The translations under genes and the position numbers were made by a program. Source: Lachnospiraceae bacterium (GTDB lineage Bacteria; Bacillota; Clostridia; Lachnospirales; Lachnospiraceae). Taken from it: a DNA stretch of 64,000 bases. How positions within the stretch are numbered: position 1 is the first letter of the stretch; each line of letters begins with the position of its first letter. Location: assembly GCA_016284355.1 (NCBI GenBank), contig JAEEOQ010000004.1:62001-126000 (forward strand), given 5' to 3'. Shown in pieces: positions 41,847 to 42,510 of this stretch. The notes below the pieces were generated by a model. It searched no databases. It saw nothing but the letters and a program-made list of their open reading frames with translations, and had not been told where the DNA came from.

Positions 41847-42152
41847 ATGGCTGAGGAAAAAAACTTTGAATTTAAAAAGTTTAATAAAGAAGAGCCTAAA
41901 ACCGCAGTTGCCCTTCGTTACGATGAAAATCAGGACGAGGCCCCGAGAGTCATAGCCGCCGGTAAAGGAAAAATTGCCGAAAAGATCATAGAAAAGGCAA
42001 AAGAGAGCGATGTCCCTTTACATAAGGACGCAAAGCTTGCAAAAAGCCTTTCAAACCTTGAGATCGGAGACAATATTCCCCCTGAGCTGTACGAAGTAGT
42101 TGCGGAAGTACTTGTATTTATTAACAGAATGGACACATTAAGGAGCAGATAA
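41847..42152 (+). CDS. FlhB/EscU C-terminal-domain-like small protein (YlqH type)
   Basis: AVALRYDENQDEAPRVIAAGKGKIAEKIIEKAKESDVPLHKDAKLAKSLSNLEIGDNIPPELYEVVAEVLVFI. Confidence 0.85.
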   Translation: MAEEKNFEFKKFNKEEPKTAVALRYDENQDEAPRVIAAGKGKIAEKIIEKAKESDVPLHKDAKLAKSLSNLEIGDNIPPELYEVVAEVLVFINRMDTLRSR

Positions 42153-42153
42153 T

Positions 42154-42510
42154 ATCAAACAGGAAAACAGAATAAAAGGAAACAGAGGCGAAGAGCTTGC
42201 AGCAAACTTTCTTATAAGATCCGGTTATGAGATCATTGAAAGAAATTATTACCTAAGAAGCGGCGAGATTGACATAATAGCTTATTCGCCTGAAAGAATA
42301 CTTACTTTTGTGGAAGTAAAATACAGAAGCAGCAGAAGCTTTGGCGATCCGGCCCTGGCCGTTACCCCCGCCAAGCTTCAAAAAATAGTTAGAACAGCAA
42401 AACATTTTATGCTTGTAAGAAAGATCCCTATGGAGACACCCTGCAGTATAGACGTGATTTCAATTACCGGCGACCTGATTGAGCATTATAAAAATGTTAC
42501 GGGATATTGA
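42154..42510 (+). CDS. yraN: UPF0102/YraN-family putative endonuclease with apparent non-canonical (ATC) start
   Basis: Frame from 42142 reads GADN-I-KQENRIKGNRGEELAANFLIRSGYEIIERNYYLRSGEIDIIAYSPERILTFVEVKYRS; conserved YraN N-terminus lies upstream of the ORF-track start at 42310. Confidence 0.85.
   Translation: MKQENRIKGNRGEELAANFLIRSGYEIIERNYYLRSGEIDIIAYSPERILTFVEVKYRSSRSFGDPALAVTPAKLQKIVRTAKHFMLVRKIPMETPCSIDVISITGDLIEHYKNVTGY

Follow-up and report, generated by a model that had tools for sequence, protein, structure and literature searches.

Near-cognate start codons appear to recur in the nuclease-family gene yraN of Lachnospiraceae

The window analysed here, a 64,000-nucleotide stretch of a Lachnospiraceae genome, contains a lepB-like gene, ylqF and a second lepB-like gene, followed by rnhB, flhB2, yraN, a TIGR03279-type radical SAM gene and der; lepB, ylqF and der are what we take these genes to be from their sequences. 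The flhB2-like gene (41847..42152, + strand) runs from an ATG to a TAA at 42150-42152 and encodes a small FlhB-like protein (flhB_rel / Bac_export_2 C-terminal domain), which in profile searches matched PF01312 (6e-23) and, slightly below the cut-off of that model, TIGR00789 (1.7e-32). Not every family locus has flhB2 inserted between rnhB and yraN: across the window, L127, L348 and other loci, yraN lies either directly after rnhB or after a small FlhB-like gene.

The yraN frame, on the + strand, is closed upstream by a TAA at 42139-42141 and is open from 42142 to 42507 (stop-to-stop). As a sequence-only reading of the window had claimed, it holds no ATG, GTG or TTG before a GTG at 42310; its codons from 42142 read GGA GCA GAT AAT ATC AAA CAG GAA AAC AGA ATA AAA GGA. 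Shine-Dalgarno (SD) scoring identified AAGGAG at 42140..42145 (+ strand), within the 3' end of the flhB2-like gene. The AGGAG at 42141-42145 ends 8 nt before an ATC at 42154..42156, and the flhB2-like stop codon ends 1 nt before this ATC, both agreeing to the base with that reading. The ATC is the proposed start; it lies 8 codons 5' of the conserved G of a G...E..A pattern, a distance typical of canonical yraN starts, which usually fall 6-8 codons from that G, and SD spacing was also tested blind (below). Initiation there would yield a CDS at 42154..42510 (+ strand) ending in a TGA at 42508-42510. Its 118-aa product, the length that had been proposed, covers positions 1-80 of the 80 in PF02021 (3.3e-28) and matches the YraN NCBIfam models, exceeding the cut-offs of NF009150 and TIGR00252.

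The motif given for the YraN / UPF0102 family is E-(V/I)D-E(V/I)K (PMC1189080). In the window, it is spread over three + strand segments: GNRGE (42178..42192), identified in an alignment of relatives, with the conserved G at one end and the nuclease motif's helix-1 E (42190-42192) at the other; GEIDII (42262..42279), with the catalytic D; and the catalytic half-motif EVK (42313-42321). Both the whole-domain PF02021 match and the catalytic motif are thus present, placing the product in YraN / UPF0102, with a predicted nuclease activity. The GTG at 42310, the first canonical in-frame codon, encodes the V of FVEVK (42310..42321). A start at this codon would drop the helix-1 E as well as GEIDII, whose loss had been noted before, and retain EVK.

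Of the + strand open frames in the window that reach 110 codons or more, no other has its first canonical start as late as yraN. The pattern AAGGAG-N8-ATC occurs once in the window against 0.63 expected, which is not significant alone. Since the pattern is no commoner than chance, significance must come from comparative and homology data. The window genome (G000) is a metagenome-assembled genome (MAG) of 157 contigs, 80% complete, and is the only member of its genus among the genomes compared; the genera of G018, G277 and G055 are likewise singletons in the collection. With no sister species at hand, we surveyed yraN across the family instead.

A yraN match was present in 389 of 397 family genomes. 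We collected DNA for 220 loci, of which one was incomplete, leaving 219 for analysis. These are not strictly a random sample, as 150 were the best matches to the query and 69 formed a second batch, and the strict rate of loci without a canonical start was similar in both (11/150, then 3/69). At each locus, the conserved G of G...E..A served as anchor, and every codon from the upstream in-frame stop to this anchor was examined. Fourteen of the 219 loci were without any ATG, GTG or TTG. The number becomes 16 with two near-equivalents: L115, which has an ATC in start position after AAGGAG and canonical codons only 27-28 codons off, and L275, which has an ACG 9 nt after GGAGGT and whose sole GTG is one codon before the anchor. 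Loci with a nearby canonical start comprised 127 ATG, 48 TTG and 18 GTG.

The codon in start position at the 16 loci was almost always a near-cognate one. ACG was found at about eight loci (L182, L195, L275, L017, L024, L173, L127, L253), ATC at the window locus (L001) and L115, CTG at L202 and L014, ATT at L119 and L232, and ATA at L200, while L226 could not be assigned to one codon. The exact codon is ambiguous in 4-5 loci (L024, for example, may use ACG or TTT, and L014 CTG or ATT), and SDs are weak at some of the calls (L182, L226, L232, L119). Most surveyed genomes are draft assemblies, and start codons were deduced from sequence. On a yraN tree of 111 columns that is poorly resolved, the 30 near-cognate loci required a minimum of 19 state changes, which we take only as a sign that near-cognate starts may have had several independent origins.

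To serve as controls, flhB2, rnhB, the radical SAM gene, ylqF and der from the same loci were put through the same procedure, and 0 of 377 was without a canonical start (Fisher 8e-8 against 16/219 for yraN, 6e-7 against 14/219). The share of ATG was also lower in yraN (127/209) than in controls (306/377; p = 1.5e-7). Outside the family, yraN strictly without a canonical start was found at 0 of 86 loci (0/29 at class level and 0/57 among named-contig loci). As a positive control, infC was examined in 30 family relatives; following GGAGGTG-like sites, its start codon always occupied the same position and was ATT in all but one, which had ATA. The infC of the window genome itself (L357, G000:C59:24200-25800) has an ATT start after GGGAGGTG, as in 29 of the 30 relatives. 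It also has an in-frame ATG a few codons after the ATT, and gene finders would probably pick that ATG.

If these codons serve as starts, they should stand at a proper distance from an SD. In a blind test of near-cognate loci with an SD match of at least 5 nt, the single in-frame codon 7-9 nt downstream was CTG, ATA, ATT, ATC or ACG in 10 of 13, compared with an expected rate of 0.126 (p = 2e-7). SD matches were also longer at near-cognate than at canonical yraN starts (p = 0.001; means of 3.5 nt for ATG and 4.2 nt for TTG). The window locus has the features of this class: no in-frame AUG, GUG or UUG before essential residues, and a strong SD at normal spacing (8 nt).

The same non-canonical codon is found across sister species in two genera, ACG in g67 and CTG in g263; the window genus is represented by a single genome. 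In g67, GGAGG-N8-ACG is retained in all five species, although pairwise comparisons gave a yraN identity of only 58-76%; in one of these species an ATG additionally overlaps the SD. In genus g263, for which L202 was the seed, 15 of 50 yraN loci are without a canonical start, with CTG recurrent 8 codons before the anchor, while rnhB in the g263 loci gave 0/47. Two of these yraN genes lie in near-finished genomes, G450 (L348; one contig, 100% complete) and G403 (L350; four contigs). Before exclusions, 20 g263 loci had no canonical codon at a distance of 4-20 codons from the anchor. Of these, L333 and L370 were not counted, having an upstream motif that indicates probable TTG starts of N-terminally extended genes, nor was L379, where RNase HII and YraN are fused. 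Two more, L324 and L349, are ambiguous, and L340 and L360 were counted as canonical but may start at CTG.

These comparisons bear on the suggestion, raised by the sequence-only reading, of a base error in the metagenome assembly that hides a true ATG. A single base separates ATC from ATG, and the genome is an 80% complete MAG in 157 contigs from a genus without a sister genome. However, a canonical yraN start is missing in 6-7% of family loci, a prior far above any plausible per-base error rate, and never in the neighbouring genes of the same assemblies (0/377), and species of the same genus have the same near-cognate codon in common. We consider a base error improbable.

We regard it as still less probable that yraN is a pseudogene or an untranslated relic in lineages without a canonical start. 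Loss of the start codon is a typical first lesion, and the gene can be dispensable, as UPF0102 is absent from some well-known genomes in the Pfam control set (8/14 ring). But the frame is intact in every locus without a canonical start, a correctly spaced near-cognate has taken the place of the canonical codon in almost every case, and the SD is stronger rather than decayed. In species pairs with CTG, ATT or ACG starts, dN/dS was 0.05-0.19; the catalytic E is kept at 30 of 30 near-cognate loci, and GE-D and EVK are matched in nearly all. This purifying selection and the retained catalytic residues show that yraN genes with near-cognate starts are functional.

Initiation at another near-cognate codon in the window is very improbable: an ATA at 42172 has a weak SD, AGGA 6 nt upstream, but this match is shorter than that at the ATC, and the ATA lies 2 codons before the conserved G, where none of the relatives' canonical starts, which cluster 6-8 codons before it, was called. 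Least probable of all is that ribosomes reach yraN from the gene before it, by frameshifting or readthrough, and need no start there, given that near-cognate loci show mixed frames relative to that gene (12/11/6 in frames 0/1/2), gaps of 1-169 nt and either rnhB or flhB2 as the upstream neighbour, even with an SD-like sequence at the flhB2 end, a 1-nt gap in the window and genuine in-frame RNase HII-YraN fusions elsewhere (L213, L227, L379, L091).

Taken together, recurrence, controls, SDs and dN/dS make base error, pseudogene and frameshifting all unlikely. We conclude that yraN in the window is very probably translated from the near-cognate AUC at 42154, as one case of weak starts that recur across the family. 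Non-AUG initiation at this ATC, proposed from the window alone, is thus the best reading, supported by the survey of yraN against its neighbours; that near-cognate yraN starts are apparently recurrent and family-wide goes beyond what a single window could show.

We propose that the fMet-tRNA (anticodon CAU) would pair imperfectly with AUC, being mispaired at the third base, and that a helix between AAGGAG and 16S rRNA 8 nt upstream would steady the initiator tRNA on this codon. Ribosomes terminating on the flhB2-like gene 1 nt upstream probably help initiation. The product would be a complete 118-aa YraN of the PD-(D/E)XK type, presumably fMet-initiated and made in small amounts. Across Lachnospiraceae, the yraN start may have been weakened repeatedly, from ATG to TTG or GTG and then to ACG, CTG, ATC, ATT or ATA, with the SD retained or strengthened as the start weakened. 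For yraN, we infer initiation at a near-cognate codon, low output and sensitivity to IF3.

Termination-reinitiation coupling needs short distances (PMC10666635). The sequence-only reading had considered coupling probable, and this is plausible for the window gene because the gap to the flhB2 stop is only 1 nt; it does not hold as a general rule, because at other near-cognate loci 45-105 nt separate yraN from the gene upstream. In an IF3 survey that used other initiator tRNAs, Watson-Crick pairing was required at codon positions one and two (PMC10158994), so ACG would be a strongly penalised codon.

To our knowledge, only a few bacterial genes have established near-cognate starts, and each of them uses a single, fixed codon. 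One close parallel is infC, with a near-cognate AUU or AUA after a strong SD, present in the window genome and across the family. However, infC keeps its ATT at a fixed place and autoregulates IF3, whereas the yraN start varies by species (ATG, TTG, GTG, ACG, CTG, ATC, ATT, ATA), with no evident feedback. Streptomyces sigR has a GTC start repressed by IF3 (PMC5472188). Like yraN, it belongs to a two-gene unit and pairs a non-canonical codon with a long SD, an arrangement that is constant throughout a genus and that gene finders misannotate; it differs in being a sigma factor gene whose GTC was tested experimentally, while yraN is a nuclease-family gene with many codons and starts read from sequence. 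In S. aureus, extended SDs precede the starts of infC (AUA), cvfC1 (AUU) and ccpN (AUA), and those reporters that were assayed gave ~10% of AUG in minimal medium (PMC13009471). The cvfC1 and ccpN genes are another instance, in a Firmicute, of conserved near-cognate starts with an extended SD, but there Ribo-Ret showed a single codon for each gene within a single genus, whereas yraN is one gene across a family in which ACG and CTG are prominent. E. coli pcnB (AUU; cited in PMC13009471) encodes an enzyme acting on nucleic acids whose poor start codon holds its level down, as may be so for YraN; it is another gene with another codon, and a single known case where yraN shows recurrent switching.

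SDs tend to be stronger at GUG and UUG starts (Belinky et al. 2017, PMC5622118), and in yraN this compensation appears to extend to near-cognates. Among 61,358 AUG starts, the same study counted no more than 2 switches to CUG and 1 to AUU (PMC5622118), while near-cognates in yraN reach 6-7% of family loci. Our literature search found no paper dealing with ACG as a bacterial start or with CUG as a start in Lachnospiraceae. Near-cognate starts as such are already known (infC, pcnB, sigR); that they recur throughout a family in a single nuclease gene appears to be undescribed.

Two accounts of the weakness both fit: YraN output may be deliberately limited, or so little YraN may be needed that weak starts drift in. 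That several species retain an identical weak codon, and that SDs are stronger, speaks for initiation being maintained; it does not show a benefit of weakness. The pattern points to a nuclease with limited dosage or not under strong demand.

In g263, a conserved element (consensus ACAAAAGATACCTACAT / ACAAAAGA[T][A/G]CC[T/G]ACA[T/C]) precedes yraN in 26-29 of the 50 loci (L322-L351, L360-L379). In 26 loci, its distance to the start downstream is 26-42 nt (33-39 nt in most), and it aligns CTG (9 loci) and ATT (2) exactly with the TTG (9), GTG (4) and ATG (2) of siblings. It occurs almost only before yraN, with 35 matches to the strict pattern when both strands of 364 kb were scanned; of the 219 other family loci, 1 has it, and this locus is from the same genus. 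It is possibly a promoter or operator. Mimicry of the 16S 790 loop, with which it shares AGATACC, was set aside; variants such as AGAAGCC occur. We tentatively raise a broader possibility, which we hold to be somewhat doubtful: selection may keep YraN scarce by repeatedly exchanging its AUG for near-cognates that IF3 discriminates against, with ACG and CUG as regular starts and dosage tied to IF3 and ribosome status, and one genus may add the ACAAAAGATACCTACAT element 33-39 nt before most starts.

The recurrent near-cognates of yraN, ACG and CTG included, offer a natural series for measuring the trade-off between start codon, SD and IF3. Standard annotation likely drops or truncates yraN in a notable share of gut Clostridia; in the window, the 66-aa ORF from the GTG at 42310 loses half the active site.

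RNase HII and YraN share one uninterrupted open frame of 346-398 codons at three family loci (L213, L227, L379) and in a Neomarinimicrobiota MAG (L091), and these natural fusions suggest that the two enzymes act together. Two yraN matches each were found in G113, G058 and G367; those of G058 lie side by side on a single contig and may be the two parts of a gene interrupted by an insertion.
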